A DNA stretch of 64,000 nucleotides, taken from the NCBI GenBank assembly GCA_027946365.1, contig JAPEUQ010000009.1:1178001-1242000 (forward strand), given 5' to 3'. Below the pieces are notes generated by a model. It saw only the letters and a program-made list of their open reading frames with translations. It ran no database searches and had not been told where the DNA came from. Below are positions 32,787-60,614 of the stretch, one piece after another. This stretch comes from Kalmusia sp. IMI 367209. Lineage: Eukaryota > Ascomycota > Dothideomycetes > Pleosporales > Didymosphaeriaceae. The position numbers were made by a program, and so were the translations under genes. Position 1 is the first letter of the stretch. Each line of letters opens with the position of its first letter.

Positions 32787-34978
32787 CTACACCTTGACGC
32801 CAGTGATGTCCGGGCTCGCCTTGTGGTCGTGGATCTCGTCGAACTTGTATAGGACTGGCTTTGCGAGCCCCTTCTTACGGAGAATATACGTCTTGAACCA
32901 CCAGGGTAGGTTCTTGGTAAGCTGGTAGTTCATGTGCGTACGTGTCGGTACGGCGAAGACGTAGTCGAGCTCTTCGAGCGTGCGCTGCTTCGTCTCGGGC
33001 AACCACAAGAAGCTGGAGAAGTTAGCGGCTAGACGCTCACATGGGAGCCTAGATGGACTTACATCATAATGAGGGCCACGACGTTAAGACCGGCGTAGAA
33101 TCCAAAGACACCTTGTGGCCTCATAACTCGCAACATAGTCGGGAGGGTGAGAGAAAGGACGGATGCCCAGAAGTTGTTGGTGGCAACAGCCCATGACATT
33201 CCCATTTCACGATGCGACAGAGGGAAAACCTCGGCCGAATAGGTGAATGGTACTGGTCCTTCTCCTGGCGAGTAAAATGCGCCGAACAGGTACACGAACA
33301 AGGCGATCAGACCCATGTGTGCAGCACTGTCCTTGGGGATGTAGTAGCACATTCCTGCAACCAACAATGTCCAGAACATGTTCGGGAATGTGAACAGCAA
33401 TAGGCCGCGGCGCCCAAATGTATCGATGGTCCACACAGCCGGCCAAGCGAAAACAAAATTGACCAAACCGAAACCGAACGAGGCAATGAGTGCCGTCTTA
33501 TCAGTAGCACCACCCTCCTTGAAGATAGTGCTAGAATAGAAGGCAATAATATTGACTGCCTCTGTTAGGAAAGTGCTCTGAGTAACGACAGGATCCACTT
33601 ACTGCCGCACATTTGTTGTCCGATCATGACGATGCCAGAAGCCTGGGTGGCACGACGGACACGAGGGATAGTAAAGAGCTCAATGAAACGCGTGAAGAAG
33701 TTGCCGTTTGGTGACAAGCCTTTCTCCCGGATCAGAACCTCCTCTTGGGCAAGAAGTGCATGGGTGTAGTAGAGGTCGCGCGCAGCCTGAAGAGGGGTAT
33801 TACGAAGTCGAAGGAAAGACCTATAGGCCTTGGCATAGCGGCGCTTCTTCATCAACCAACGGGGCGACTCTGGAACAAACCAGATACCGAGGACGAGCGG
33901 GACGGCGGGAATGAACGCAGAGCCCAATTGCAATCGCCAAGCGATCCTACCAACATTCTATCATCGAGTCAGATACGTACTAGCAGTAGATGGGTGCATT
34001 CAACTTACCATGACAACGAGGTTAGCCACTGTACCCAGGAAGATACCGAACGCTGTCCAGATTTGCCATGACATGACAAGACCGCCACGAACATTAGCAG
34101 GGACGTTCTCGGCTGAGAATACAGGCACGGTCACCTCTTTTAAGCCCATGCCGATACCCAGGAGGACACGACAGGCTGCGAGCTGTCCCCAATGTTGGGT
34201 GAGACCAGAGCCAATGGGTGCAAGGACCGAGAAGATGGCAGCGATGAAGATTGTGCCTCGGCGGCCAATCAAATCATTGATCGGGTCAGAAATCCAAGCG
34301 GTGAAGAGCGCAATGGCAATGTAGGGGCAAGAGTTGACGAAACCCACGATCCAGCTGTTCTTCCGGCACAGGGTCGTGTTGGCGGCGCTTGCATCACAGA
34401 AACTGGCCGGGCCATCCGGGATACCGAATTGCTCAGCGAAGGTCAAGTTGGCACCATTTGAACCTGTCTGATCCCAACCCTGAATAGCTGCGGCAATTGA
34501 GTTGAGGATGATGGTGATGTACAGGATCCTTGGCAGCTTCCAGCGGTGCGTCAATTCTTCACGGAGAGCGGTACGATCGTTCTCGTCAAGCTCTTCGATC
34601 TCGTCGATCAAAGCGGGCGCCTGGGCCGCAAGCGCACCCTTGATCAAAAGCGGAGTGATGTCCTCGAGCTGGTGCTCGCGAGCGAAACCCTCAACATCTG
34701 CAATCAATTGATGCTTGGATAGAGCGACAAGCGGGTTGCGAATCCTGTTGATATTAATGACACGTCGCCAATGGCATACACATATGCGACTTACTCTCCC
34801 TCTGTATTGGCAGTCAGCTCTGCGATGCTCTGGCGACGCTTCTCGTCAGTATCGAGCAAGGAGCTACGGCGCTCGACAGGCCTGTTAAACTGCGATTAGC
34901 TTACACAAACTGTTGTAAGTCCTGTCAGGCACAAGTATTAGAAACTTACTCGGCGCCAGAAATCTTCTCGTCCGCCAT
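32787..34978 (-). CDS. MFS sugar/polyol transporter (SP family, inositol-transporter-like)
   Basis: Proton-coupled uptake of a sugar or polyol across the plasma membrane. Six exons: 34978-34950, 34881-34795, 34744-34009, 33957-33603, 33555-33063, 33012-32787; 641 residues. It has a cytosolic N-tail of roughly 115 residues and twelve expected helices. Signatures: DLIGRRG after helix 2, PESPRWL after helix 6, FGRRGLLL, and [11 protein letters not shown] after helix 12. The [17 protein letters not shown] stretch recalls fungal transporters annotated as myo-inositol-like. Exon 4-5 acceptor was set at 33556 to give [12 protein letters not shown], matching the family, over a nearby alternative AG. 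All phases agree. Substrate is not determined. Confidence 0.92.
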
Positions 34979-37273: not shown

Positions 37274-39165
37274 GCTCTCGGTATGCCAAGGCTGCTGGGG
37301 GCTTTGGTCGCTGTGTGGTACCCGTTTGTAAGCCTGGTGCTGTTGTGCGGTATCCTGTACTTGACCGGTCCCCTGTACACTGTTGTGGCGGTATGTGTTG
37401 CTCGATGCGACGGAGTCCCAGGCTTGCATCTTAGAAGTGCGATTCTAATCTTCTATATAAATACGAGCTTAAGGTGCACCACGAAACGTACATGCCAGAG
37501 TAAGGGTTATATATCGCGTCCGCGATATGTCCAAGAATCTCACAGCCTCCCTTCCACCCTCGTGTTCAGTATCGCATTGTCTTGGTTTGGGGCGGTGTCT
37601 GCACGAATGTAGATAAATCTCTCTAAATAGAATAGTGTACGCTGCAGACATTTGCGCGCGTTTTCATTGGGTCGTCGAGGGCGCGTTTCAGGGTGGAGGG
37701 CTGCGGATTGGGGGCGCGCGCGGTTGCGTGCCTCAGGCTTGTTTCATGGCTGCAATTGTGATATTGCGCGACTAAGTCGGACAAAAGAAGAACAGAAACT
37801 TGTACATAGTCGTAAATCTGTGTTTTTCCTATAAATAAAAGTAGCATATTGTATCGTTGGGATACACTCATAGGAAAATCTCGGGCTCACTGGCAGTCAA
37901 GAATGTTGTAGGTAGGAGAAAGAGCTCCTAGGTCAACTAGGCTTTATAGCTGAGATCTAGTCAAGCTTAGTCATCGACTGTTGGCAACTCATTTCTATGA
38001 GGACTCTCTATGGGTAGGCAAAGTGCAAAGAATTGATGCATGGAATGAATTGAATCTATCTAGGAAGCAAGAAGATAAGTAAAGAAACTTGAAGAGTCTA
38101 CACAGGCACAGTTTCCTAGTATATATACAGTGAGCCATCTACTGTTGCACAATATGTTTTCTGGAACGGTGGTATCATTGATGCTATTACATTTGCGTAA
38201 TGTCTGAGGCACTTACGACTCATTCAGTCGTGTAAATCGCGGGATGGGCGGCACAACACGATTTATTGGTTGTAGACGTCACGACGCATCAAGATCGTAT
38301 CGAGCATACAGAGAAGAGCATCTAGATATCATGATTTGCTCATGATGGTCTCTATCGACGAGTACGTAGAAATTGCGACCAAGTGACATTACCATTCTTA
38401 TTTTCATCTCTGCGATAGATTGCCATTGCACTAACCCTTCCTAGTTCAATTATTACCCTTGCTTTACATCCTTTGGTACCTTAGTCATGACTTGAACGCA
38501 GTGGTCTTTGATTGCAGACGACGGCAAAAGTTCATAGTTCAGGCGAGTTGATATAGGAACAGTCGAACAATACTGTGCATACATGTGTTGCATATAGTTT
38601 TAAGAGAGATGGTGAAGTCAAATTCTCAATTTTGCCTGAAGTTATAGTCATAGGATGAAGAATGCGTGGACTATATTTATGCTTATTCAGTCTCTTATCT
38701 GAGTGCTGTGGCCTTCAAGCCTGGATACTGTGCAGTACTATTATTCAAATCCTCTCGTCTCAGTCTTTCTCATTCAATTGCATCCTGAAAACTACGCTGA
38801 ATCCAAGATGAGTTTGACTTTAGATGTCGCTTCACCATACACCAGTAAAAGAATCGGAGCCGGGCCATTCCGACTCCGCCGTGAGCCTCCGCTTCATAGA
38901 CTCGCCCCGTCATGATACAGCAAATAGGCACCGTTTGTAACGCTTAGTGTAGGAATATGGGAACGCTACTTACCATATTTGGTGTAATCTATGTAAGACG
39001 GTAAGCGCTAGGTTGCGCGATTGCGCACCTACGTGCTACTTCGGCGATTCCAACAATAATATAAAATAAACACGTTAGTAGTTCTTTCGCATTGCCAACA
39101 GCTCTGTAATACTCAACACTCGAGAATATTGTGACGAAGCCAACACTCCGATCACCACCGACACC
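37274..39165. other. AT-rich gene-poor stretch
   Basis: About 1.9 kb. From roughly 37.8 kb to 39.1 kb it is clearly AT-richer than its neighbours, with few long frames. No gene, transposon ends or long repeats were seen by eye. It separates the housekeeping side from the metabolic cluster. Confidence 0.5.
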
Positions 39166-40303
39166 ATGAGCGAACTCAAAGAACTAGACTCAATCGAGAT
39201 CCAAGTCCTTGTCGATAATGAGCTCGATCCCATCTCCAAATCTCCCCATGCAGCCGTCAAGGATGCAACATCTTTCCAGCTTTCCGATCTCGCACCAGGG
39301 TCGCGCGGTGTAGCTGCTAAAGAATTGCGCATGGATAACCTATGCTGTGGCGCACACGGCCTATCTCTTATGATTGTACACATGTTCTCCCCCAACCCTG
39401 TATATATTGAGTCTTCTAACGTGTTGTATAGACTGCGACAGTAGGCTCAAGCAAACACACTCTCCTCTTCGATGCTGGCCCCGAAGAAGACGTCTTCGAA
39501 AAAAACGTCACCCGTTCCCGCACAGATCTCAGCGCCGTCGAACACATCCACCTGTCGCACTGGCATCGAGATCACTCTGGCGGCCTGCCCCGCGCTATAC
39601 GCATGATTCATAGCGCCCGACTCTCTAATAGTCCCCTCGGCAAAGTAGCTGTAGATGTGCACCCGAACCGCCCTGCCTTCCGCGGCATCAACATCGGACC
39701 ATTCATTGTCTCGCTGGAGAGCGATCCGACTTTTGAAGAGCTGGCGGGCGCGGGCGCAGTGGTGAAGAAGGAGAAAGACCCGCATACGGTGCTGGATGGT
39801 ATGTTCTTGGTGTCGGGAGAGGTACCAAGGGAAACAGACTATGAAGTTGGGTTCAAGGGTGGGGTGAGGATTGATGAAGGGAAGGGAGAGTGGGTGCCTG
39901 ATGAGTTGATTATGGATGAGCGATCTGTGGTGTGTAATCTGAAAGGTAAGTTCTCTCCATCTGCCATATATCACTGAGAACTAGCTTACTAACGAGATGC
40001 AAAGGCAAGGGATTAGTCGTCTTCGCGGGATGCAGTCATCCTGGCATCGTAAATATTTGTAGGAATGCGATTGAGTTGGGCGGAGGGGCACCGTTGTATG
40101 CTGTCATTGGTGGCTTTCATCTTGCTGACGGTGACCCGACGAAGCTGCAAAAGTCTGTCGATGATCTAAAAGCGTTGGAGCCGCAGATCTTGATGCCCGG
40201 ACACTGTACAGGATGGAGATTCAAGTTCAAGATTGAGCAGGAGATGACGGGGTCGCTCGTCCCTTGCTTTAGTGGGACCAAGTATACCCTCGAAGCGGTC
40301 TGA
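39166..40303 (+). CDS. Metallo-beta-lactamase-fold hydrolase
   Basis: Zinc (or other di-metal) hydrolase. Exons 39166-39375, 39432-39945, 40005-40303; 340 residues. The metal motif is HLSHWHRDHSGG (the HxHxDH box with the usual loop), with LLFDAGPE before it, GCSHPGI in the third exon as the next His, and GGFHL plus a C-terminal MPGHCTGW His. This arrangement is that of the archaeal/bacterial dihydropterin-phosphate-synthase-like MBL proteins, whose fungal substrates are unknown. Intron 2 has a perfect TACTAAC branch site. It is convergent with the oxygenase (220 bp between stops), so membership of the metabolic cluster is likely by position only; I saw no CGGWCCG box before it. Confidence 0.88.
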
Positions 40304-40523
40304 TGTATGCTATCAAGAAAAAGATTTTTGAGGATGCATTACGCGCTGAGTAACCCTAGGATACACAATAGAAGAATGAAAAGGGTTCAAACTTTTGTTT
40401 AATGAGTATATTTTTGAATGATTCATGCAAGTGCTATGCTATTTTAGGAAAACGCCGAGGTAAGGTACCTCCAACACCACGCACCCAAGAAACTGCGCAG
40501 TTTTGATCGCCCTCGGACAATAA

Positions 40524-41594
40524 TCATGCTGCCGCCGCAACAGGTTCCAGCTTCTCCGGCTCCGGGTAGTGGACCGCATTCCTCATAGCTTGATACTCCA
40601 GCGCAGTCAAGTCCTCGTACATGGGCTTATCCTCTGCGCTAATGAATTCTTTGAGCGGGCCGACGTTGACGTGTCGGTCAGCCTTGTTGAAGTACACCAA
40701 GCTCCACCTCTCCGGCACCATGTCGCCCGTCATGTCTCGAGGCTTCGTCACGCGGTGAAGACCAGCCCGCACCCCGCCATTGGTCCAGCGCTGGAAAGTC
40801 TCAGACACGATGACCACGACTTCATCGTCACCGTTGTAAGGCATCGGGATGAACGAGCCTGGGTTCTCGCGGTCCTCGTACTCCAAGCCGCCAGTGCGGT
40901 CGGGGAACACGAGTGAGATGATGCCGAAGTCGTTGTGCGGCCAGATGCGGCTCACCTGTCCGGTCTCAAGCGTCTGGCGTTCGACCGGAGGGAAGTGGTT
41001 GATGCGGATGGTGCTGGCCTCATTCGTGCACTTGGAGGAGAAGAGCTTGGGGTTAAGGCCCATGCCTTCGGCAAGCACCTCCAAGAGGTCAACACACAAG
41101 TCGCCACAATCGAAGAAGAATTTATCCATGGTCTTCTGGTAGCCGGGTAGGGCCTCCTGTGTCGGCCACTGGTTGGGGAATTTCTGATCATCCGGATGTC
41201 CGCAATCGAATGATTCCTAGTTGGTTCAGTGTCCTATCTTTAAGCCTATGTGTAAGTGCCATACCTTGTTGTCACTGAACTTGGGTGATTCTACATCGCC
41301 AGTGTTGCTCTCCAACCACCACGTCTTCTCCTCTCCTGGAGGGCTCCAGCCACGCTGCTGGCCCCTCTTGGGATCATTGATGATGTCCTTCTTGTCGGCA
41401 AAGGGGAGCTTGAAGAAGCTCTTGATCTTGCTGAAGGTATCCTCCACAACAGGCAAAGGAACGCTGTGGTTAACGAGCTTGCAGAAGCCAAACTCTGTCA
41501 TAGCCTCAAGGAACTTTCCGCTGAACTCCGCACGCTGCTGAGCAGTGCCATTGGTCAGGCAGGAAGCGTCAAGAACAGGGATGTCTTTGGCCAT
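40524..41594 (-). CDS. 2-oxoglutarate/Fe(II) dioxygenase, isopenicillin-N-synthase-like
   Basis: Oxygenase that couples 2-oxoglutarate decarboxylation to hydroxylation, desaturation or ring formation on a small molecule. Exons 41594-41265 and 41216-40524 with a 48-nt intron; 340 residues. The N-terminal DIOX_N-type part begins IPVLDASCL and has the GFCKLVNHSVP motif. The iron triad is His204-x-Asp206 (in WPHNDFG) and His264 (GLHRVTKP); 2-oxoglutarate would bind Arg280 and Ser282 (ERWSLVYF). All key residues are present. It shares a 406-bp promoter with the isopropylmalate synthase, with three CGGWCCG boxes, so it is probably co-regulated. In echinocandin producers a similar oxygenase sits with an isopropylmalate-synthase-like gene. 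Substrate unknown. Confidence 0.93.
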
Positions 41595-42000
41595 TTTTGA
41601 AGGTGGGTGTAGGAGAATTGAAGTTCGTTGGAGAAGAAGGCGTCGAAGAACTGATGATCAAGTCGATGCGATAAGCTGTCTGTGATGCCGTTATCAACAG
41701 CGCGAAGCTGCTCAATTTGAATTCGCGAAGTTCCATGCCTGAATAGTGTGGAGTTGCAGTGTGGTAACGGTCCGTCGGTACATCGCAACGATCATTGCCG
41801 ATTGCGGCCCGGACCGAAGCCGAGTCAGCACCAAAGGCGGTCCGATCGTACCTTGCACCGAATATGTCTCGGCTTGTGGCTCGGTGCGTCGCAATGGAAG
41901 TGATCTGCGCACCACTCCACCATGAACTGATGTGAATATGTAAAGCCCTGCTCGTGCGATTTTCGGGGCCAAAGCACGGATAACGCGCACCAACTTCACC
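41595..42000. promoter_or_regulatory. Divergent promoter with three CGGWCCG boxes
   Basis: 406 bp between two start codons. CGGTCCG at 41768-41774, CGGACCG at 41810-41816, CGGTCCG at 41838-41844. Each is a CGG/CCG inverted repeat with one spacer base, the kind of half-site pair that Zn2Cys6 proteins bind. The same heptamer occurs before the isomerase and between the aminotransferase and transporter. Binding by the local regulator is inferred. Confidence 0.55.
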
Positions 42001-43905
42001 ATGCCTATGTGAGCAGTCTTGTGGGTTTTACCAAAGACAGCCTGCTAATAATAGACCCAGGTTACACACATCATCAGAGAAGTACGAGTCCTTCTCTCCG
42101 CCAACACTCTCCGACCGAACATGGCCGTCAAAGAAGATCACAGAAGCTCCGCGCTGGTTAGCAACCGATCTTCGGGATGGCAACCAAAGTCTTGCTCATC
42201 CCATGACGGTTGACCAGAAATGGACCTATTTCGAACTGCTCGTCAAGATAGGGTTCAAGGAAATCGACGTCAGCTTTCCCGGAGCTTCAGATACTGAATT
42301 CAACTTCACCCGCCGATTAGTCGAAACCCCGGGTGCTGTACCAGATGATGTATGGCTACAAGTACTATCACCTTGCCGAAGAGAGTTCATTAAGCGCACT
42401 GTTGAGAGCGTGACCGGAGCAAAGCAGGCTACCATTAGCCTTTACATCGCATCTAGCGATTCCTTCCTAGACACCATCTTCGGTCTGACACAAGAAGACA
42501 TTCTCAATATGGCTGTTGATTGTGTGACCTACACGCGACAAATCACGAAGGAGGATCCAGAACGACAAGATACCACGTGGAATTTAATGTTCAGCCCCGA
42601 AGCCTTTTCCGACACGGATCCATCATATGCCATCAAGCTCTGCGACGCGGTTCGTGAAGCCTGGGATCCAAAGCCAGCCGTACCTATGATCTTGAATCTT
42701 CCCGCCACGGTGGAAATGTGCACACCCAACACGTTCGCTGATCAAGTCGAAATCTTCTGTCGGGCATTTCCACAAGATTCCGTCATTGTATCTCTACATC
42801 CTCACAATGACCGTGGATGCGCCGTTGCTGCTGCCGAACTAGGTCAGCTTGCCGGAGCAAGGAGAGTTGAGGGTTGTCTCTTCGGCAACGGCGAACGGAC
42901 AGGGAATGTAGATCTCGTTACGCTGGCCTTGAATCTCTACACACAAGGTGTCGACCCACATCTTGACTTCTCCGACTTGCCAGGTATTCGTAAGACAGTC
43001 GAGGAGTTGACACGCATCCCCGTACATACACGAGCTCCCTACGCTGGCGATTCGGTGTTCCTCGCCTATAGCGGCTCACATCAAGACGCCATCAACAAGG
43101 GTTTCAAGCAGTGGGAGCAGCCAGCCTCAAAGGACAAGAAGAACATTTGGAAAGTGCCGTATCTGCCTCTCGACCCCAAGGATATTGGCGCCACGTACGA
43201 AAGCGTCATTCGCGTCAATTCACAGAGTGGTAAGGGCGGTGTAGCATGGACCCTAGAGCGGACCGCAAATCTCGAGTTACCACGCAGCCTGCAGCAAGAC
43301 TTTTCCATGGTAGTCAAAGCCGTCTCGGACAAGGTCCAAAGGGTGCTGTCACCGGAAGAACTTCAAGAGTTGTTCCTGAGGAATTACAGGGTTCTCGAAC
43401 GAGATGGCAAGGTGCTTGAACACAGCGCGACTGAAATTGGGGGTGGCCGCTTTGAGGTCCGCGCTACAATTCTCATCAACGGACTCGCGCGCGAAGTCCG
43501 TGGCAAAGGCCCCTCGGTTTCTGCTGCGCTATCTGCCGCTCTCGCTGTTGGTACCGGTCTACAGATCTCATTCGATGTCTATCAGCGGAAGTGGATGGAG
43601 AATGGCCAAGAGCAAGATATGGTTCTTGCCATGTGCGATTTGAAGCGTGGAAAATATACGTCATGGGGTGTCAAGGTGGGATCAAGTCTTGATGTGGAGT
43701 TGATGGCTTGCCTGTCGGCTGTGTTGGTGAGTACTATACGGACTCCTTAAAAGATAACATGCTGACTATCTGCTAGGGCTTGGAGAACCTACTTCAAAGT
43801 CTAAGGTTATTACCGTTATTCCATGGGGCAAAGAGCGAGAATGCAGACACCAATGGTTTCTTCCGGAAAGCTGTGTCTGTGGGTCCATGTTATACTTTCG
43901 GATAA
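42001..43905 (+). CDS. 2-isopropylmalate-synthase-like enzyme (LEU4 paralogue)
   Basis: Condenses acetyl-CoA with a 2-oxoacid; for leucine the acceptor is 2-oxoisovalerate. Exons 42001-42008, 42061-43726, 43777-43905; 600 residues. The first exon is eight bases (ATGCCTAT); splicing over a 52-nt intron with a GCTAATA branch restores the fungal Leu4 start and the TDLRDGNQS motif (Arg41, Asp42). Metal residues lie in SLHPHNDRG (His249, His251). GCLFGNGERTGNVDL follows. The C-terminal LeuA regulatory domain (about residue 420 on) is present but diverged: the usual GNGPISSL-type stretch reads GKGPSVSAAL, and the end is short. That suggests altered feedback control or a different substrate; inference. 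It lies next to the isomerase and aminotransferase, unlike the dispersed leucine genes usual in fungi. Confidence 0.93.
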
Positions 43906-44624
43906 GCATTATAAAGCATTCGCAATGATGAAATTTTGGCCATTTACATATCCACATGAATTCCCGTGTTCTTCAGCCTGTTGTTGCTAGGATTCAAATC
44001 CTCGCTTTCACGTCCACTCCATCGCCTTTCATGCCGCATTGTAATAACCTGACTTGCTTCCTTCTTGTGCAACACCACACTTATACGCAATCCATATCGA
44101 ACATCGAGAATTGGCCAAAATTTTCCGCAAGTGATGGACCATCAGGATTGCTAGGGAATGCATTAATCGATGTTCTCTTATATATTTTATCCCACAGGAA
44201 CGTATTTCGTACGCATCATAACTACAACTCCAGCGTAGAATCTTCTCAAAACAAGATTTCTGCTACAGAGATCGATAAATTGGATTACTCGCTATCATCA
44301 CTTTGCGGTATATTGATTGACGGGACGATTTCTCCGATCATGCATCGGAGAATCCTGAGATCTTCAATCGCGCAGGCTGGGTGCGATAGACTTACCAAAA
44401 ACATCTCTACGCCCCACAATCTGCGGAAAACAATTCCTTAGTTGCTCTAGGAGAAGCCAGCCGATCACGGTTTCGGCTCGGAGCGCTGATCAGCGGGCGC
44501 TTCCATTCCACGTCGGACCGACCTCAAGTTCGCAACCGCACATCGCACCGAGCACACAGCCAGCGACAGAGTATGAAGAGATTACAGACCTCCTTTGTAG
44601 GCGACCACGCCGGACGTGGAGATT
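43906..44624. other. Intergenic, isomerase promoter
   Basis: About 0.7 kb. An ATG-initiated frame of 161 codons (43956-44441) has no protein-like texture and is not called. The end of the stretch is the isomerase promoter. Confidence 0.55.
44514..44520. promoter_or_regulatory. CGGACCG box before the isomerase gene
   Basis: Single CGGACCG, within the longer palindrome TCGGACCGA, about 105 bp before the ATG at 44625. Same heptamer as in the other cluster promoters. Confidence 0.5.
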
Positions 44625-47267
44625 ATGCCCTACAGTATGGATCCCGTTACCGAACCCCGTACGCTCTACGAGAAGATCTTTGATGCCCATGTGGTCGCTG
44701 AGCGAGACGATGGCACAGTACTGTTGTACATCGACCGTCACCTTATTCATGAAGTCACCTCACCCCAGGCATTCGAAGGGCTTGACAACCACGGACGTGC
44801 TGTGCGCCGTCCTCAACTGACGCTCGCTACATCTGATCACAATGTGCCCACGTCACAACGCCCCCGTGGAGTGAAGGCGTCTACCTACCTCACTCGCGAT
44901 GACTCGCGTATTCAGGTCCAAAAGCTGGAGCGGAACGTCAAACGCCACCAGATTCCCTACTTTGGACTTCGTTCGAAGAGACAAGGTATTGTCCACGTCA
45001 TTGGACCCGAACTGGGCTTCACTCTCCCCGGGACTACTATCGTGTGTGGCGACAGTCACACGAGTACACATGGTGCTTTCGGTGCGCTTGCACATGGCAT
45101 CGGCACGAGTGAGGTGGAGCATGTGTTGACCACGCAGACGCTTGTGGCGACTAAGAGCCGCAACATGAACGTAGTAGTTCATGGCCACCTTGCTCCTGGA
45201 GTAACTTCCAAAGATCTGATGCTCTACATCATTGGCACAATTGGTAAGCCCCGTACATTACTTGCTTCTTTAGAGTCAGATATTGATACAGTCCAGGCAC
45301 GGCAGGTGGAACTGGCTCTGTAATTGAGTTCAGCGGACCTGTCATCGAGGGTCTCTCCATGGAGAGTCGCATGTCTCTTTGCAATATGTCTATTGAAGCT
45401 GGCGCAAGAGCCGGACTCATTGCTCCAGACGAAATAACCCTGGCATACATCAAGGGCCGAGAAATGGCACCAAGCCAGACCTGGGCCGCAGCCGAGGCGT
45501 ACTGGAGGACGCTGTACACCGATGTTGGCGCCGTCTTCGACAAGGTGGTGCATATTAACGCTGACCAAGTAGCACACACAGTCACCTGGGGCACCTCGCC
45601 CGAACAGGTCGTGCCAATCACTGGAACCATCCCTGGTCCTAGCGATTTTACAGATCCAGTGAAAAAAGAAAGCTGTCGCCAGGCTTTGGCTTACATGGGA
45701 CTCACCCCTGGAGCAAAAGTCGAAGACGTGCAAGTTGACAAGGTGTTCATTGGATCATGCACAAATGCTCGAATCGAAGACTTCCGCGCAGCTGCTCAGG
45801 TTCTGAAGGGGCATACAGTCGCACCGAATGTCAGACTTGCCCTGGCAGTGCCTGGATCAGGAATTGTTAAGCGCGCCGCCGAGGAGGAAGGGATCGATAT
45901 CATCTTTAAACGTGCTGGATTCCAGTGGAGAGAGGCCGGATGTAGTATGTGCGTTGGTTTGAACGAAGATGCTCTCGCGCCGACCGAGCGTTGCGCTAGT
46001 ACATCTAACCGCAACTTCGAGTCACGTCAGGGGACAGGTACGTGGTGTCAAGTGAATATTTCTTTGGCAAAAATTTCCTTTCCAATTAGCTGAGTCATGT
46101 GATACATATCCCAACTTTCTTTTGACTTATGCTGACTTTGTCCCCGCTGGTTTAGCTGGCAGAACGCATTTGGTTTCGCCAGTAGTTGCTGCTGCCACTG
46201 CGATCAAAGGCACGCTATCTGCACCACCACAGGATCCAAGCTCCTTGGCAGATGTCTCCCGCTTTCAGCGTGTTGATGTAGATTCCACGTACTCGAGTGA
46301 CAGCGAAACATTGTCAGACGAAGACAGCGCCTCGACCACCTCCCTAATATCCTCGTCCTCGGAGTACTCCGGACCAGCAAGCACGGTCAAGCGAGTATGG
46401 ACAGTCGTCAAGAAGCACGTAAGAGAGCACCACGACAGCGTAAACCAAGCTTACGGAGTCTACTACGGGCAGAACGTAGGGAGACAAAGCTCCGCCCAAC
46501 CCAGCCCAGGCCACACAGACCACGCCGTGAAGCAATCCACGCCGCAACCCAAAGCAAAGCCTCTATTCGAAGACAACATCAAGGGCACGGTAGCCATCAT
46601 CGACCGCGCAAACATCGACACCGACGCCATCTTCCCCAAGCAATTCTGCACCACGACGCAGCGCACCGGCCTCGGCCACGCCTTGTTCCACAACCTGCGG
46701 TACAACGCGGACGGCACGCCGAAAGACGACTTCGTCCTCAACCGGCCTACCGCGCGCAATGCGTCGATCCTGCTAGCCACAGGCCCGAATTTCGGATGCG
46801 GCAGCTCCCGCGAACACGCCGTGTGGGCCCTGCAAGACTTCGGTTTCCGCTGCGTTGTGGCGCCGAGCTTCGCGGACATCTTCTACAACAACGCGTTCAA
46901 GAACGGGCTGCTGCTTGCCAAGGTGGACGCTGAAGTGCTGGCACGCATTGTTGGGGAAGTGGATGCGGGGAGGGAGGTTGCGATTAGCCTTAACGATGAA
47001 GCTGTACGAGGGCATCAGGGTGCTGAGCTTGGAAGCTTTATGATCCCCGAGCGTCGCAAGATGGAGTTGCTTAGTGGTGTTGGGGAAATCGAGGCTAGCT
47101 TGGTATTTGAGCCGCAGATTAGACTTTTCGAAGAGCTGAGGGGACGAGTTTCGCCGTGGTATGAGGAAGGTGTTCAGCGGAGGGTTGCCGCACGTCGTCA
47201 TCCTGTCGCGGAAAAACAGAGTGATCCATTTGCAGATGGTGCGGGGACGGAAGCTCTTAGTTGGTAA
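44625..47267 (+). CDS. 3-isopropylmalate dehydratase-like isomerase (LEU1 paralogue)
   Basis: Aconitase-family enzyme moving the hydroxyl of 2-alkylmalate to the 3 position. Exons 44625-45243, 45297-46037, 46156-47267; 823 residues, single chain with large and small domains fused as in fungal Leu1. 4Fe-4S ligands are all present: Cys361 (GSCTN), Cys422 and Cys425 (GCSMC). Other hallmarks: [27 protein letters not shown] and [13 protein letters not shown] of the swivel domain. The linker between domains (about residues 475-588) is long and Ser/Asp-rich. The frame is open upstream to a GTG at 44616; the ATG at 44625 is taken, and one at 44637 is possible. Sequence is visibly diverged from housekeeping Leu1, so a specialised copy is likely. 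Confidence 0.93.
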
Positions 47268-47443
47268 TTTCTCAATGAGATTATGCTTCGCTAGTATCAT
47301 TCTTGCCGCCGCTGATATGATGCCCAAATGCGATTTACGGATCCCCAGCAAGTCCAAGGAAATAACTAGGATGGAAAGAATAGCCGAATTGAACCATCTT
47401 GTGAATTTCTGAAAAGGAAAAAAAAACGTATTCCCTCTTCTTT

Positions 47444-50136
47444 CTACGTTGGCATCATAATGTCATCTAGACTAGAGATATCGAAAATGCTCTCCGAAAT
47501 GTCCTGCGGAAAATCGAAACACCCCAGCTCGCCCGTCGCAGAATCGCATATGCCCTTGTGTTCTATCTGCATGCTCATCGAGTCGCCTTCCACCGACCCT
47601 CTCATCGATCGCGGTGGCGTCTGATACTGACCAAGCGTCTTGGGATGCGCGTCTAGCAGCAGCTCGCTCATCTCGGCGAACAGATCGGGATCGGACTCCG
47701 CTTTTACTCGCAGTTTGCCGAAGAAGCCAGATGCGATGCCGAGATAGGATAGGCAGTCTTCTCCCTCTTCGCCTTTCCTCATTAGGATGTATAGTACTAT
47801 CGCGGACAATGCCGGAAGCATAACGACAGGCCTGTTGTATGGTCAGTTGAGATACTGATCTTTGGTAGTTCAATATATGTGTATCTTTCGAAACAGCAAA
47901 TTGGGATTCTGGCCCAACGATTGTAACTTACCAATCAGTACCCGAGTCTGTACGACAAGAATGCGCGGCTCCAAGGACTCTTTTCGCGATGCTCACACAC
48001 TGGTCTTTGCTGGAGGTATAAACGGACGACAATTCTTGGCTACAATTGTTCGTTGCGAGAATCCATCTGTGAATAGCGAGAGACGCCTCCGCATACCTGA
48101 GGGAGATGTCGGAACGTATTATTGCATCTCCAGCATGCTCGTGGCATTCGGGTCCGTCAAGGTCGCGATCTGGGCGGTATGCGGCTGGTATTGATAGTCG
48201 CCATGCCTCTAGCATTCCCGATAATCGGTCGATGGCTGCTGACACTTCCGGCGCCGTCATACGTAGGGACGTGTGGCTGTATAAGGTCTTGACGATGACC
48301 GAACACAAGCGGGCGTACCGGTAGTTGACGATTTCCCATCCTGAATAATCGGTTATACCTTGCGTGAAAAGACCTGATCTCTTTTTGGATGGAGCGTGGT
48401 AAACCAATAAGTCGTCATCGACCACCTACCACGTATCAGAAAATTATATCATTTAAACACCTCAACTAGCTGTTCTGTACTCACCGAATGGCTTCCGAAT
48501 CTCAGAGCATGTGGCTTCTCGATCGAATACAGCAGCCAGAACATGCGTTCAAGGTCCTCTAGATTTGCGCCTGTGTTCTGTATCGTGGCTGTGGGCGGCG
48601 TGGTGAGACTGAGATCTGAGATCATACTTATTGCTTGCGACAACAAAGCCCTCGTTAGTACGGCATCATGACGGCGATGCACGAAGAGAATCTATGTTGA
48701 ATGAGCTTAGTCCTTTTGCTCAAGCTGGGAACCACATACCATGGACACTAGAGCCTGTGCAAAGCCGTTAGCAGATGCGAATTGTGATTACGAAATGGAG
48801 CGCTTACTTGAAGTTTCAATACAGAAGGCGGCCCGTTGGTAAGCTCATTTCGGTTTTCTAACGCGCATTGGAAGTATTGCGAAGGGCGGGTGTTGGACAC
48901 CGGGGATCGTTTTTCCGTATTCATCCTATGCTTGCGGAGAGCGTTCCGACAACCAATCGCAAGGACTGAGTTTAGCAGCACGAAGGCGCTCTGGTCCATA
49001 TGGCTCAGTGATCGCATGGCTTCCATCAAGATCTCGACGATCAGTTGTTTGCTAACGAAAGCCGGGTATCTGCGAGCATTAGTTAGGTCGGTGGAGAAGC
49101 TGCATCGTGCGCCTTACCCATAGTGTTCCTGGAAAAATACTACAGGTGAATGTTAGCAACCCGGGCGTACGGTACACCCCTAGAAGATGGCTTACAGTCG
49201 ATAAACTCCAGGGTCTCTGGCTGGGCGTAAGATGGTAGAGCGCCATGTGTGCGTCTCGCTTGCGGATCATCCACCCTGGTGGAACCACGCACTTTGCTCC
49301 ATATGCGGCGTTGAAGATCTTCGTCGCGATCCGAGACAGATAAGTCGCCCGACGACCGGCCGATAAAGCGGACGGGAGCGAACGACGAGAAGTCCTCTCA
49401 CAAAAATCAGCATGTCGACAGGAAGCGCAGACCTTGACTTACTGTACAGTTCTTCGGGCCAGATCCGACTTTGTTGCGGATCGTCTCCTAGATCTATGCT
49501 GTGGTCCAAGGGGTGATCATCGTCGCATGATGCAGTACCGCTCGCCCAGGGAGAGACGCCGTCGCTGACATCAGGCGTGAGAACCTGTCGGCTGGGACCT
49601 TCGATGGCAGGAGTTGAAAAGGTAAGGCCCGTGCTACTGTTGTTATCTCTGTTATCAAAGGATCAAATGTGGGAGAGGAACGACTTGCACTGCAGTGTCC
49701 AGGAAGTAAGATCCCAGATCCGCCCCATGGGGACCCTGACTAGGACTGATGGTGTAACCGGTGAGGTTGTGCCGCATGCCGCTATTCATGTCATTCTGTA
49801 GCCCTTGGGTCTCCTCGACGTCTATTTCCAGGGTGTTCCGCCGCGGCTTATCATTTCGACTAATTGAGTTATTGCTATAACCGCATTTCAAGTTTAGCTT
49901 CTGTACGTTCGGTCGTTAGCCAACCCAAAGAGTGCGCAGGCTCGCCACAACAAAGACTCACCAGGCATTGCGAACATGTCGCAGCGCCATCGCCTGCAAG
50001 TTTCAGCATCAACGTCGTTCATCATGCCCTCGACGAACAAGGAGATGAAGATTGGCTCACATCGAACTTTTCGTTGGCGACAATTCACACAGGCGCCCTT
50101 GCGACGTGTGATTTTACGGTAGCCGCTCGTTTCCAT
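47444..50136 (-). CDS. Zn2Cys6 transcription factor with fungal-specific middle domain (cluster regulator)
   Basis: Eleven exons by my model: 50136-50061, 49993-49962, 49900-49691, 49584-49443, 49396-49196, 49139-49118, 49069-48808, 48754-48740, 48691-48485, 48425-47932, 47831-47444; 682 residues with all phases agreeing. The zinc cluster is split over three exons and is complete: Cys16, 19, 26, 32, 35, 42. The middle region has the fungal regulator pattern (FAPVRFIGRSSGDL, YFQCALENR, MFWLLYSIEKPHALRFGSHS, then DLDGPECHEHAG). Exon 8 is 15 nt. The exon 3-4 junction (donor 49690, acceptor 49585) is the least certain; other splice choices exist. A TGGACCG near-match to the cluster box lies about 145 bp upstream. 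Role as regulator of the surrounding genes is inferred from position. Confidence 0.85.
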
Positions 50137-50760
50137 GGTATAAAGGCGTTTTTGCGAATGCGAAAGATGTCAACGATCTAGCCTTTGGAGCATCCTACGA
50201 TTCCTTTGTGGAGTAATCAGCTACCGCGGTGGCGAAGCGAGCACGACCATCTGCACGCTCAGACACAAGCTGAGCTTGGACCGAGCGTAAGAGATGACAT
50301 CAAGCAGTCGCACGACTGGACCATGAGCTTCTGGGTGAGACGCGTAAGATGTAACCAGGAAAACGGCATTTGTATTCCAGCCTGCTGGCCAACCAGAACG
50401 CCGCCCCTACTCTACCTATGGGCCGCTATGCCGCCTTGGGAAGGCAGCAATAAGACGTTCAAAACTCCGGAGATGCATACACTTCTCTTTTCGAACCACT
50501 CGCAGGCCCCCATCATCAGCATGCATCGGAAACAAGCATATCGCTCCTTCGTGGAGAAAGACCCACCGGTGCGGGGAGTTTTTTCCAATGTTTTTTCAAT
50601 CAACGTGGCACTGTCTAGACTCTGCATGTAGCTAAGCCTCGCACACAAGAAATATCATCTAGCTCGTCATGTAGGTGGGTCGCATGCGGCTAAAACGCTT
50701 TTTTTTCCTTCGGGGACCGAGTACAGTAAGCAAGGTCGATTCATACTGTTTCGGCGATTA
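50137..50760. other. Intergenic, regulator promoter and aminotransferase 3' side
   Basis: About 0.6 kb. Open frame at 50185-50631 begins only at TTG and has no resemblance to known proteins. TGGACCG at 50278-50284 is one base off the cluster box. Confidence 0.5.
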
Positions 50761-52200
50761 CTAAATAATCTGTCCTACTGGAACACTCCACGGGTGCTCT
50801 TCCAACGCGTATTGGCGAGCCTCAATCCACTCCTTCATCAGAGCCGTTATCGTTCCCGCGTTCTGATGACGGGACAGCCCGCACTGCACTAGCCGGTCCT
50901 CCCATTTGATCGCCCGGATAGGGCTGACGACAGCAGCTGTCCCTGTTCCGAAGACCTCCACTAACCTCCCCGCGTCCGCCGCCGTCGCCAATTCTGACAT
51001 GCAGATTGGGCGTTCCTTAACAATCCATCCCGCAGGCACGAGCCTCTCCCTTGCCAGGCTTAATACGCAATCTCGAGTCACGCCAGGAAGGATCATGCCA
51101 TCCAACGGCGGTGTCACCAGCTCGAAACCCTCCTCCTCTTCATCCGTTTCGGTTCGCAAAACTATAAATAAGTTCATCGTCCCAGCCTCTGTGATGTAGT
51201 CGTCGTCACCGAACAGCCAGAGAAGCTGCTGGAAGCCTCGCGCTTTCGCTGCTTTCTCCGGAGCGATACCTGGAAACAGCGGAGCACACACGTTAGCAAG
51301 ACGTCACGGACCGCATATACGAAACGGATAGTGCAGTAGAGTATAGACTGGGCTCGCACGATAGGGGGGACACGGCGACACGTACAGGGCGCATAATTGC
51401 CTCCTATCTTTTGGTTCCCTGCTCCCCCAGGCCACGCTCTAGTCGCCACGGAGCTGCTCGTCGCCTCCAAGTTGATAGCTTTGAATCCGGCGGAAAAATA
51501 AGGACCGACAGGGCAGGCGATGCAGTACAGCAGCGCCGCAGTGGGGGCAGCTACCCCTAGGTTGGCGTTCGTAGCGATTATGACGGGGCGCAGGTAGAGC
51601 GAGTAGCCCGGTTTTCTGCAAATCACACACACAATGGTCAGGCGTGTTTGCCGATTTCGGCGCGGGCTGCTTACCCATATATGAAGCGCTCCTCTAGCTT
51701 GACGAAGCGCGCGATGAGCTTGAGCAGCTCTTTGGGGTCGAACGTGGGTAGCGCGATCCTGGCGGCTGACTTATTGAGGCGGTCAAGGTTGATCTCAGGT
51801 CTGAAAAGTCCGACGTTGCCCCTGGCATCCCTGTACGCCTTCATGCCCTCGAAGCACTCGAATCCATAGTGCAGCACCGCGGCAGCTGGGTCGAGAGCCA
51901 GTTTCTCGTATGGCGCGATTTGGGGCGACTGCCAGCCATTGTCCGCCGTCCACCGGACTTGGAGTATGTGGTCTGCGAATCATGAGCCTTGTCCGACGCA
52001 CTCGTTCACACACATCCTTCACGACGAAAGCAATACTTGCCCGTGGTGTGACTGCCGAAGGTCAGGTCCTCAGCCGGGGGAACCTTTGATGGATGTAACG
52101 TCTTGGTGATGCGCAGTTTCGATGCGTCGAGTTGTGCGGGGACGGATGGAGCGCTTTCACGCTCGAACGAGCGCTGCGGGGAGACGAGTCCTGGCGCCAT
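50761..52200 (-). CDS. Branched-chain amino acid aminotransferase-like enzyme (BAT family)
   Basis: PLP enzyme exchanging amino groups between glutamate and branched or related 2-oxoacids; here probably the last step of the chain-elongation route. Exons 52200-52041, 51972-51675, 51615-51386, 51269-50761; 398 residues. Intron 1 has a GC donor (GCAAGT), the only choice giving the family stretch [12 protein letters not shown]. Other blocks: [34 protein letters not shown], and the PLP lysine (about Lys222) in [10 protein letters not shown], then [17 protein letters not shown]. The N-terminus is not strongly mitochondrial (contains several acidic residues), so a cytosolic form is likely. It is divergent from the transporter, sharing three CGGACCG boxes. 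Confidence 0.94.
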
Positions 52201-52805
52201 GGCTTACCCACTTTCGCCATGAGCTCTGGCGTCTGGTCATTATAGTCGACATGATTTCGCGATGCTAGAGAGGAGTCGTGCGAACGGAAAGGAAACCTGC
52301 GAGCAATCGTCGCTTCGGACCGCAGTACGTTCCCGGTAGGGCCTTTAGTGTGCGTGCGGACCGACGGACCGCCCGCTGCTAAGGCAGCTAAAGGCAGGTC
52401 CCCAGCTGAATAATGGGTGAGCCTCTCGGGCAGACAGCTGAAGGATCATTTCAGTTGCACAAGGAGGAAGCGTGGTGTTTGATCATCGCAGCTGAACGGA
52501 TCGATATACCAATCAAGGTAATAAACGTGTTGATCTTGCTGGCGTCAAAGAACCGCACACTTTTCCGACGGCCACCATTGAGACATCCTTCCCCGCGACC
52601 CACAAATGTCATCGTACTCTTTGTCCTCGACCGTGTAGGACTAGCGTGGGGGCGAACACCCCCGTTCAAAAGCGATGCTCTTCACCGCCCGAGTGGGCGT
52701 ACGCGACGATTGTACTTTTCAAACATTGGTCTCGTGCTTGAGATCTTCCTGGTGCATCCTGCATCTGCATCTTGCGTCTGCACTCTGCACATCCGGCACA
52801 TAGTC
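52201..52805. promoter_or_regulatory. Divergent promoter with three CGGACCG boxes
   Basis: 605 bp between the aminotransferase and transporter starts. CGGACCG at 52316-52322, 52357-52363 and 52365-52371; the last two are separated by a single A, forming a near tandem pair. All lie within 115-170 bp of the aminotransferase ATG. Same motif as before the oxygenase, synthase and isomerase. Confidence 0.6.
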
Positions 52806-54230
52806 ATGGCAGACACTTCGCAGGCTTCTTCCGAGTTCGAGCTCGAGGATCGTGGCGTGCATTCTCCGCAGGAACTCCCGCCTGTGGATGGCGGGAAGGA
52901 TGCATGGCTTTTCCTGACGGCTTCTTTTGTGGTGGAGGCGCTCGTCTGGGGTGAGCCGCACTGTGACATCTCCATGCATGGCGCATGCATGCGGGTTCGG
53001 TAGCGAAAGAACGCCCACTAACACGCTTTAGGCTTTCCATTCTCATTCGGCGTTTTCCAGGACTACTATTCGACTCACGAGCCCTTTGCGGGGTCCGGGA
53101 ATGTGGCCGTCATAGGCACTTGCGCCATGGTGAGTTTCTGTGGCCATTTTGGGCTGACTTGCGCTCACGAAATCCAGGGAATCATGTACCTGGATCTGGT
53201 CTTGGTGTTTTCGCTGCTCAAGATGTGGCCGGCCTACCAGCGCTGGGCGACAGCAGGCGGTCTATTCGTCATGTGTCTGGCTTTGGCGCTCAGCTCGCTC
53301 TCGAACAATACAACAGAGCTCATCGTCTCGCAAGGCGTCATCTACGCTATTGGTGGCAGTTTCACCTACTCGCCATGCATTCTGTACATGGACGAGTGGT
53401 TCCACAAGCGAAAGGGCCTTGCATACGGCATCATGTGGGCGGGGACTGGCCTCGCGGGCGTCATCCTCCCCCTCGTCATGGAGTGGATGCTGCGCGAGTA
53501 CGGCTTCCGCACGACACTGCGCGTGTGGGCCATCTGCCTCTTCGTGCTCACCGCACCTCTGCTGTATTTCGTCAAGCCCCGCATCCCCATCGCACCGAAG
53601 CAGCAAGCTCGCAAGCTTGATTTCACCTTCCTGAAAACGTCCACATTCGGCATCCATCAGGCCTGCAACATCGTCGAGGCCCTTGGTTTTTTCCTTCCTT
53701 CAATCTATCTTCCTACTTATGCACGCAGCATCGGCGCATCGGGCACGCTCAGCGCGCTCACCGTCATTCTCTTCAACGTCGCCTCGGTCTTTGGCTGCGT
53801 AGCCATGGGCTCCATCGTCGATCGTTGGCACGTCACGACCTGCATCCTCATCTCCACAGTCGGCACCACACTCAGCGTCTTCATTGTGTGGGGCTTCTCC
53901 ATTTCGCTCGCGCCCCTCTACGTCTTCTGTCTCATCTACGGCTTCTTCGCTGGAAGCTTCACAAGCGCGTGGCCGGGCATCATGCGCGATGTCACGAAGA
54001 AGAGGGACACAGCAGACCCAAGCATTGTGTTTGCGTGTCTGGCTGCGGGACGCGGAATCGGCAATGTAGCCTCGGGCCCGTTGAGCGAGGTGCTGATCAG
54101 GGGTCTCCCGTGGAAGGGCGATGCGGGGTTTGCATATGGAAGTGGGTACGGTACGCTGATTGTGTTCACGGGTGTCACGGCTCTGCTCGGCGGGTCGAGT
54201 ATCGTAGGCAAGCGCATTGGATGGGTATAG
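52806..54230 (+). CDS. MFS monocarboxylate-permease-like transporter
   Basis: MCT/Mch-type major facilitator, probably moving a carboxylate (2-oxoacid, alkylmalate or product) across a membrane. Exons 52806-52950, 53032-53129, 53178-54230; 431 residues. Typical fungal MCT features: a polar acidic N-tail of about 35 residues, FGVFQDYYSTHEPFAGSG after helix 1, the LLPxxx-like YDEWFHKRKGLAYGIMWAGTG region read here as MDEWFHKRKGLAYGIM, and a central loop ending KPRIP. About twelve hydrophobic segments. Both introns (81 and 48 nt) are in phase. It shares the promoter of the aminotransferase, which supports a role in the cluster. Direction and substrate are not determined. Confidence 0.92.
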
Positions 54231-59600: not shown

Positions 59601-60614
59601 GATAGCTGGGTGTAAGGGGGCTGCTGTGATTTCCTGACAGCTGAGGCTTACATAATTTTATATCATATTACAAGTTTCTGGGAAGGCACGAGGAAGGTGT
59701 GGACAAACGATAATGCTACCTAAAAACGACGGATCTGGCGGACATGTGGGTACTACAAACGATTTAGAGTCGGCTGTTCTAAAGGGTTTTCTATTCGCAC
59801 GCATACGCATCATTCTTAAAAAGGAATAGTTGAGACTCGTAATTTGGAATGTAGCTTGGGAGAATAATCGGACGAGATGCATAATCATAGACAGTTCGGC
59901 ATAGCCTGACAAAAAAATCTGTACAAAGTACGTGAAATCTTGGAACCGAATCATCGCGAACAATACCGCAGAGCTAGTAGATGAATAGTGATGACCAAAG
60001 GAGGCTGGAACGATGCCGCATGTAAAATCGGACCGAGGAATGCACGGACCAGCCTCTCAAGAACAAATACGGGGTTCTCGGCCTATCGCTCCAACGATCT
60101 TTCCTGGACATTGCCCCGATGCCCGAGCAAGCGAACATGAATCCTCACGCGACTCATTATCTAATGACACATTCGACATTCCTGTCGTAAGCTTTTCGCC
60201 AACGTAGAAGGGAACCCATGCCTGATTATGGCCCGAACAATGATAGTACGAGGTCGTCGTTCGCAAGCAGAGAATCATAAATGAATGCTAAAGATGCAAT
60301 AGCGTGTTTTTTTTTGTGCCTTACGGTACCAGGAAGTTACCCCGGATTTTGAAAGGCGACGTGCAGGGGCATGACCACAGCCAAGGGTTCTCCTCCGCTA
60401 TGGCCTTCTTCACTAACTGTTTATTGTCGGGTTTCTAACCCGTATAGATGGCGCTTAGGTAGTATTCTAGAATAGAGAGATTTATCCGCAAATCATGACG
60501 GCCGGAAGAAATCACGAGCCGAGAGAACCGGGAGCATTATTGACAGGAACCAGGAACAGCATATGTATATTAATGGGGCCTCCACTACCTCGCTGAAAAT
60601 ACACGGTGCCAAAA
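59601..60614. other. Intergenic, promoter of the secreted BNR_4 protein
   Basis: About 1 kb. A TATATTAA stretch near 60566 lies about 45-50 bp before the ATG at 60615. Frames of 60-100 codons on either strand are not convincing. Confidence 0.5.

Follow-up and report, generated by a model that had tools for sequence, protein, structure and literature searches.

A putative co-regulated 2-oxoacid chain-elongation gene cluster built from diverged leucine-biosynthesis enzymes in Kalmusia sp. IMI 367209

Results

The window analysed here, a stretch of 64,000 nucleotides of contig JAPEUQ010000009.1, carries seven adjacent genes at 39166-54230, each located by spliced models and domain matches where a preliminary description of the locus had placed it. 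Six of the seven have full-length spliced models. An MBL-fold hydrolase-like gene (39166-40303, plus strand; exons 39166-39375, 39432-39945 and 40005-40303; 340 aa; Lactamase_B 25.8 bits against a cut-off of 22.7) is followed by a 2OG-Fe(II) oxygenase gene (41594-40524, minus strand; exons 41594-41265 and 41216-40524; 340 aa; 2OG-FeII_Oxy 47.6 bits). Next come genes for a diverged alpha-isopropylmalate synthase (IPMS; 42001-43905, plus strand; exons 42001-42008, 42061-43726 and 43777-43905; 600 aa; HMGL-like 234.8 bits, IPMS_D2 also matched) and a diverged single-chain isopropylmalate isomerase (44637-47267, plus strand; exons 44637-45243, 45297-46037 and 46156-47267; 819 aa; Aconitase 209.1 and 309.7 bits, Aconitase_C 113.5 bits). 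A Zn2Cys6 transcription factor (50136-47444, minus strand) was modelled on its first three exons only, which when spliced score 41.7 bits for Zn_clus. The set is completed by a branched-chain aminotransferase (BAT; 52200-50761, minus strand; four exons, first intron GC-AG; 398 aa; Aminotran_4 67.3 bits) and an MFS transporter (52806-54230, plus strand; exons 52806-52950, 53032-53129 and 53178-54230; 431 aa; MFS_1 75.6 bits in one search and 91.5 in another). The aminotransferase exceeds the branched-chain cut-offs of ilvE_II (267.3 vs 250.05) and PRK13357 (322.6 vs 307).

The palindrome CGGWCCG occurs 116-244 bp upstream of the oxygenase, synthase, isomerase and BAT genes. Three copies (41768, 41810 and 41838) occupy 41768-41844 in the divergent oxygenase/IPMS promoter, one CGGACCG (44514-44520) lies 123 bp upstream of the isomerase start codon, and three CGGACCG copies (52316, 52357 and 52365) occupy 52316-52371 in the divergent BAT/transporter promoter. 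Oxygenase and synthase thus share one motif-bearing promoter, and BAT and transporter another. Seven of the 15 copies in the window fall within the 1740 bases of these three promoters (Poisson 4.6e-9, or ~3.7e-5 when corrected for 8139 7-mers), figures that should be read with the caution due to a motif spotted by eye before the statistics were applied. Shuffling the window reached 15 copies in 1 of 100 trials, and 50314 bases of other genes examined contained six. Genome-wide, 4 of the 26 CGGWCCG pairs reported fall in the cluster, and such pairs are rarer than those of a reversed control pattern (13 vs 44 and 13 vs 28). Leu3-type sites, CCGN4CGG, are present in two of the three cluster promoters. 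We infer that the cluster's own Zn2Cys6 factor binds CGGWCCG.

To see whether CGGWCCG is a general leucine element, we looked for it at other genes. The C8 LEU4 and C27 BAT stretches, covered for 0.7-0.8 kb upstream, have no copy. One copy lies 615 bp upstream of the modelled start of LEU1, one at position 2346 of the LEU2 locus (L031), inside the last coding piece, and one in each of four further genes examined. The motif is also absent from 38166-39165, the kilobase upstream of the MBL gene, whose promoter is common to no other cluster gene. We therefore rejected this gene as a core member and consider its membership doubtful. Of the seven genes that the preliminary description grouped into one pathway, the other six (oxygenase, synthase, isomerase, factor, BAT and transporter) look like the pathway gene set, at about 40.5-54.2 kb.

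Outside the cluster, 10 places have two CGGWCCG copies separated by 1-30 bp and 11 have copies separated by 31-61 bp; we inspected all 10 of the former. Two of these precede amino-acid genes: one pair lies upstream of the sole close threonine dehydratase gene, 125 and 146 bp from its presumed start, and an amino-acid permease gene has sites 243 and 1057-1081 bp upstream of its own presumed start. Domain searches of chosen ORFs found no amino-acid gene at the other eight. These gave a 2-hydroxyacid dehydrogenase, a methyltransferase and a short-chain dehydrogenase (L072), a transketolase and a zinc dehydrogenase (L077), MT-A70 (L074), a pectate-lyase-like domain (L076), AMPK1_CBM (L078) and DUF2418 (L080), with no domain found in the ORFs chosen at L075 and L079.

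The idea that these are the only leucine genes in the genome was rejected. Beyond the cluster there are another LEU4 (C8), another LEU1 (C3), three more genes with an Aminotran_4 domain and a weaker match to that family (C25). Because such genes exist outside, and because the cluster copies are 52-58% identical to their nearest genomic relatives, the cluster copies are both extra and diverged. The second copies of LEU4, LEU1 and BAT for which the preliminary description had proposed a search are thus present, and its picture of diverged extra copies next to genes for oxygenase, regulator and transporter was borne out by genome profile searches and domain matches. A second LEU2 copy, sought in the same proposal, was not found. 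No Iso_dh or LEU2-type match lies within the window, and only one of the eight Iso_dh genes in the genome is best described as leuB (C8:123815-124850; NCBIfam, one exon piece scored). By best NCBIfam model the others are NAD isocitrate dehydrogenase (two), NADP isocitrate dehydrogenase (one), tartrate dehydrogenase (three) and an isopropylmalate/homoisocitrate type (LEU3_arch; C30:494388), which we take as LYS12. With the oxidative-decarboxylation enzyme missing from the cluster and a single leuB-type gene in the genome, the earlier statement that the set equals the enzymology of homologation goes too far. Its statement that the window holds no NRPS agrees with our searches: none of the at least 52 genomic Condensation matches listed falls there, and comparison by hand placed none of the CGGWCCG pairs closer than 100 kb to any of those listed.

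The cluster synthase scores 667.4 bits for TIGR00970 (leuA_yeast), under the equivalog cut-off of 697.4, which C8 LEU4 passes (842.9); it does pass the subfamily model NF002991 (668.3 vs 455). LeuA_dimer, the leucine-sensing regulatory domain, scores 76.9 bits in C8 LEU4, and for the cluster synthase no Pfam match to it was listed at a maximum E of 5. The TIGR00970 alignment nevertheless extends to model position 559 of 564, and therefore a diverged regulatory domain is still present and may work. In an alignment with 79 bacterial synthases (80 loci less L126), 156 columns are at least 95% invariant; C8 but not the cluster copy conforms at 16 of them, and the cluster copy but not C8 at two. 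In a tree of 40 of these bacterial synthases and just two fungal ones, the cluster copy sits on a long branch, 2.8-fold longer than the branch leading to C8 LEU4.

Two of the changed positions may bear on function. Serine replaces the glycine found in 79/79 bacterial synthases at the position of yeast Gly516, where the change G516S lowers inhibition by leucine: a yeast strain carrying it in heteroallelic form, T25, gave extracts that retained ~80% activity in 10 mM leucine (PMC6558412). The alignment of the last 90 residues is unsure, and since two alignments place the equivalents of yeast Ser542 and Ala551 differently, the feedback argument draws on Gly516 only; by it the cluster synthase would be insensitive to leucine. 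Serine also replaces the histidine of 79/79 bacterial synthases at the Mt-His167 position, which by spacing appears to match Leu186 of AtMAM1, a predicted substrate contact (PMC6603273). The pocket positions Leu143, Ser216, Asn250 and Pro252 are kept and NF002991 is passed, so the enzyme may still use the leucine-pathway substrate.

The isomerase is over the leuC (734.6 vs 560.25) and leuD (178.7 vs 116.25) cut-offs. Its identity to C3 LEU1, 55.6%, is rough because two or more stretches of the C3 LEU1 model are incorrect. The loop PKQFLKTI reads PKQFCTTT in the cluster copy (FLKTI to FCTTT), and this changed loop would correspond to the five-residue region that sets substrate choice in Arabidopsis (PMC7308503). 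Between them, synthase and isomerase are altered at feedback positions and at positions likely to recognise the substrate.

The best PDB match of the oxygenase is UcsF (9ktp, 222.7 bits), which we take to be an amino-acid oxygenase, followed by thymine dioxygenase (138.4). The H-x-D motif, distal H and R-x-S are conserved in the alignment with UcsF. None of the 49 PDB matches is named as EcdK or GloC, and the nearest paralogue in the genome, matched exon by exon, is 33% identical over 209 residues.

Discussion

Clusters of this type are already known from hty and AM-toxin AMT5-AMT8; the CGGWCCG motif is newly found here. As in those systems, paralogues of IPMS, isomerase and aminotransferase lie together in Kalmusia; unlike them, the cluster has no dedicated LEU2. 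The hty set serves a non-protein amino acid, homotyrosine, of echinocandin B, and is located separately from ecd, the NRPS cluster (42.5 kb; PMC8948627). It differs in its aromatic substrate and in including an IPM dehydrogenase (PMC7778625), which the preliminary description omitted from its hty list, and no NRPS link was found for the Kalmusia cluster. The parallel drawn there with hty stands by enzyme kind only, because HtyE is a proline hydroxylase (PMC7778625) and the oxygenase is nearest UcsF in the PDB. BAT and IPMS genes are likewise grouped with aconitase-type genes in the Alternaria alternata AM-toxin cluster and in an AM-toxin-like cluster known from Zymoseptoria tritici (PMC8102738, PMC5561558), but each of these two also includes an IPM dehydrogenase and an NRPS. 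In another Dothideomycete, Mycosphaerella fijiensis, the scaffold-7 cluster has IPMS and IPM dehydratase genes, but with its own NRPS, IPM dehydrogenase and P450s, and no 2OG oxygenase is named in the relevant part of that report (PMC5006380). In the S-TeA route of A. alternata, threonine deaminase with IPMS, isomerase and IPM dehydrogenase extends 2-oxobutyrate; the relevant passages describe no dedicated gene cluster, and the word 'dioxygenase' is absent from the text (PMC12140367).

Two likenesses come from further afield. Mycoplanecin biosynthesis in Actinoplanes combines the IPMS-like MypK, the LeuD-transaminase MypL and the Fe/2OG oxygenase MypE, which acts on homoisoleucine, and borrows LeuB and LeuC from primary metabolism (PMC10817943). 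That system is bacterial, has an NRPS, borrows LeuC too and uses a dehydrogenase, MypF, for alkylproline. In Brassicaceae, methylthioalkylmalate synthases represent a leucine synthase recruited for chain extension; they have escaped regulation by leucine and their pocket is changed (PMC8468904, PMC6603273). Their C-terminal domain is lost, whereas the Kalmusia synthase retains a diverged C-terminal stretch.

We hypothesize that the cluster encodes a co-regulated specialised pathway of deregulated 2-oxoacid chain elongation and oxidation that borrows the housekeeping LEU2, a reading to which we give an even chance. A branched-chain 2-oxoacid, from BAT and/or central metabolism, would receive acetyl-CoA from a synthase freed from leucine inhibition; the altered isomerase would shift the hydroxyl, and the single housekeeping LEU2 enzyme would carry out the oxidative decarboxylation. 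BAT would then give a homo-amino acid, most likely of the homoleucine/homoisoleucine class, whose side chain would be oxidised by the oxygenase, and the product may leave the cell through the MFS protein. A more specific version is offered tentatively, as a minority possibility. In it the fungal pathway would stand alone, with no NRPS of its own; fed by a naturally leucine-insensitive synthase, and with the cell's threonine dehydratase recruited to the CGGWCCG regulon, it would make and export an oxidised homo-branched-chain amino acid in free form, or the alkylproline to which this cyclises. Such a pathway would be a probably convergent fungal counterpart of MypK/L/E.

The altered feedback features and the mostly leucine-synthase type of pocket would suit a deregulated supply of leucine without chain extension, for which the housekeeping LEU2 would also fit. 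The oxygenase would then act on leucine (or isoleucine), e.g. towards methylproline, in the manner of EcdK, which carries out successive oxidations of leucine that lead, by cyclisation, to a pyrroline (PMC7778625). For extra leucine, however, the His167 and isomerase-loop changes would be unnecessary, and the connection with threonine dehydratase suggests the isoleucine branch; we regard this explanation as unlikely, though worth keeping in view. Aromatic homologation, in which the synthase would turn phenylpyruvate into a homo-aromatic amino acid as in hty and AMT, gains from the like enzyme kinds of echinocandin and AM-toxin producers (PMC8102738, PMC7778625), but appears improbable given the retained Asn250, Pro252 and Ser216, an aminotransferase that passes branched-chain models, threonine dehydratase as the co-motif gene and a cluster without a dehydrogenase.

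That missing dehydrogenase, together with the one leuB-type gene in the genome, would instead favor a route ending at a 2- or 3-alkylmalate, perhaps modified by the oxygenase and exported by the transporter, with BAT merely supplying the 2-oxoacid. We hold this to be just as improbable, since the best PDB match of the oxygenase is an amino-acid oxygenase, a LEU2 gene is available, and primary LeuB can serve such a pathway, as in mycoplanecin (PMC10817943). There is little probability in a second, conditionally expressed leucine pathway for ordinary growth with oxygenase and transporter as chance neighbours: the synthase does pass NF002991, the isomerase passes leuC and leuD, and the motif also marks threonine dehydratase and the amino-acid permease, but motif-bearing promoters are common to oxygenase and synthase and to transporter and BAT, and the synthase branch far exceeds that of C8 LEU4 in length.

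If the chain-elongation pathway is confirmed, it would give fungi a clear example of how leucine enzymes are repurposed to extend chains, through the same two steps as in plants, namely loss of leucine control and a change of substrate recognition. The deregulated synthase and altered isomerase would be usable as parts for homo-amino acid production, and the shared motif would tie a specialised cluster to a gene of primary metabolism by regulation that can be tested.

Results

All seven genes that the preliminary description had joined into a leucine-type elongation cluster are present in the window (C30:1178001-1242000, in a genome of 42.8 Mb and 30 contigs), on the strands MBL hydrolase +, oxygenase -, synthase +, isomerase +, Zn2Cys6 factor -, BAT-like aminotransferase - and transporter +. 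Six give full-length spliced protein models, and the three exons modelled for the factor gene are sufficient for a Zn_clus match. Divergent promoters separate oxygenase from synthase (41595-42000) and BAT from transporter (52201-52805). The cluster is real. Upstream of it lies a sugar transporter-type MFS gene (33059-34845, minus strand), and a BNR_4 repeat protein (60597-61925, 232 bits) is also encoded outside it.

Were these the only LEU4, LEU1 and BAT copies in the genome, the specialised pathway of the preliminary description would fail, but further copies were found on contigs C8, C3, C27, C29 and C23. The cluster synthase is 58% identical to the C8 LEU4 over the main segment and 52% over the whole, and the isomerase 55.6% identical to the C3 LEU1, for which the gene model is rough. 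Aminotran_4 genes elsewhere share 57.8% (C27), 43.3% (C29) and 29.7% (C23) identity with the cluster BAT, with a weaker match on C25. The search points to just one LEU2-type gene: one of the eight Iso_dh genes found in the genome scores best as leuB (C8:123815-124850), and none of the eight lies in the window. Separately, one of three ILVD_EDD (dihydroxy-acid dehydratase-type) genes found in the genome, at C25:3780855-3781746, is located about 10 kb past an NRPS array (C25:3746912-3770979); with a biosynthetic cluster for neighbour, this extra copy may be of the resistance type, or may be there by chance.

Judged from its sequence, the cluster synthase is an ordinary Leu4 no more. Against the leuA_yeast model (cut-off 697.4) the C8 copy scores 842.9 and the cluster synthase 667.4, the latter passing the broader model NF002991. 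The LeuA_dimer allosteric domain scores 76.9 bits in the C8 copy, whereas Pfam lists none in the cluster synthase, even at a maximum E of 5; since the leuA_yeast alignment crosses this stretch, it remains, though changed. Among 156 columns with at least 95% identity in 79 bacterial relatives (one of 80 was dropped), the cluster synthase departs at 16 where C8 agrees, and C8 at two where the cluster synthase agrees. The position of M. tuberculosis His167 (numbered from the 1sr9 alignment), which we take to be sited in the synthase pocket, holds Ser in the cluster synthase and His in C8 and 79/79 bacteria. By spacing, it appears to match AtMAM1 Leu186, a predicted hydrophobic substrate contact (PMC6603273). 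The position of yeast Gly516 is likewise Ser, against Gly in C8 and all 79 bacteria; yeast T25, heteroallelic for G516S, is described as retaining ∼80% of its synthase activity when 10 mM leucine is present, an effect that G516S also produced on overexpression (PMC6558412). In the tree the C8 LEU4 is sister to the cluster synthase (SH-aLRT 99), with end branches of 0.75 and 2.11, respectively; the topology fits duplication within fungi followed by rapid change, subject to a long-branch warning and to there being two fungal rows only.

The isomerase passes both the leuC and leuD models, and the housekeeping loop PKQFLKTI reads PKQFCTTT in the cluster copy (two bacterial small subunits of solved structure have PKQFLKLI and PKQFLLAV here). 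In the Arabidopsis small subunit, a five-residue region of a flexible loop is reported to bear on chain-length preference (PMC7308503). We infer that the two loops are the same. For the oxygenase the top PDB match is UcsF (222.7 bits; next, thymine dioxygenase, 138.4), with H-x-D, distal His and R-x-S all retained in the alignment of the two; UcsF is, we assume, the isoleucine oxygenase of UCS1025A biosynthesis. The cluster oxygenase's nearest paralogue in the genome shows 33% identity over 209 residues at 106 bits, a score obtained exon by exon and so not strictly comparable.

The palindrome CGGWCCG was spotted while reading promoters and tested afterwards. It occurs 15 times in the window against 7.6 expected, a count reached in 1 of 100 shuffles, and three cluster promoters hold seven of the copies (3, 1 and 3) against 0.22 expected (Poisson 4.6e-9; ∼4e-5 once corrected for the window's 8139 7-mers). 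It is the best 7-mer common to all three, and its parent form, CGG-N-CCG, ranks top of 45 CGG/CCG spacings. For four genes (oxygenase, synthase, isomerase, BAT) copies stand 116-244 bp from the start codon, and for the transporter the distance is 441-490 bp. The 1 kb upstream of the MBL gene has none, nor has the interval from BAT to factor, and 50314 bases of other genes of the genome hold 6. Leu3-type CCGN4CGG sites (17 in the window, 13.3 expected) occur in two cluster promoters, synthase/oxygenase (41798-41807) and isomerase (44461-44470). Three more precede the C3 LEU1 gene.

Genome-wide, 26 CGGWCCG pairs with a gap of 1-61 bp were reported, four of them in the cluster, against 72 for the reversed control pattern, so that such pairs are not generally frequent. 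Ten of the pairs outside the cluster have their copies 1-30 bp apart, and all ten places were examined. One pair (C14:162798-162825) lies 125-146 bp ahead of a threonine dehydratase gene (PALP + Thr_dehydrat_C) that is the only close one (next match, 31% identity); at C16:367377-367407 three copies in 31 bp lie ∼1.07 kb ahead of an amino-acid permease, with a fourth at -243. The ORFs searched at the remaining eight included no amino-acid genes, and two among ten could in part be luck.

Discussion

Zn2Cys6 factors bind CGG/CCG pairs, and from the kind of factor we would guess that the cluster's own binds CGGWCCG. Leucine-type enzymes are clustered in other fungi, namely in hty, AM-toxin AMT5-8, a Zymoseptoria cluster and a Mycosphaerella cluster. 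Each contains a dehydrogenase, which the present cluster lacks, and an NRPS lies beside the last three and 42.5 kb from hty, whereas none of the Condensation matches listed for the genome falls in the window. The oxygenase and the common promoter motif further set the present cluster apart. No fungal description of this gene combination was found in the literature, a weak negative given that most subscription papers lay outside the search.

The simplest pathway using all these observations is 2-oxoacid elongation. According to this scheme a 2-oxoacid would be elongated by a synthase free of regulation together with a retuned isomerase, decarboxylation would fall to the housekeeping LEU2, and transamination, side-chain oxidation and export would complete the route. 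The mycoplanecin cluster is described as encoding MypK, which resembles IPMS, MypL, in which LeuD is fused to a transaminase, and MypE, an oxygenase that hydroxylates homoisoleucine and leucine, but no dedicated leuB or leuC (PMC10817943). When the homo-amino acids of mycoplanecin were produced in vitro, primary metabolism supplied the LeuB and LeuC (PMC10817943), and the lack of a dehydrogenase is therefore not fatal to the scheme. Because the threonine dehydratase gene shares the CGGWCCG pair, a chain derived from isoleucine or 2-oxobutyrate would be favored; Alternaria is reported to extend 2-oxobutyrate with such enzymes in its S-TeA route (PMC12140367).

In conclusion, the cluster very probably represents a dedicated pathway, for which chain extension is likely but unproven, and an NRPS elsewhere in the genome, where at least 52 Condensation matches are listed, may use its product.
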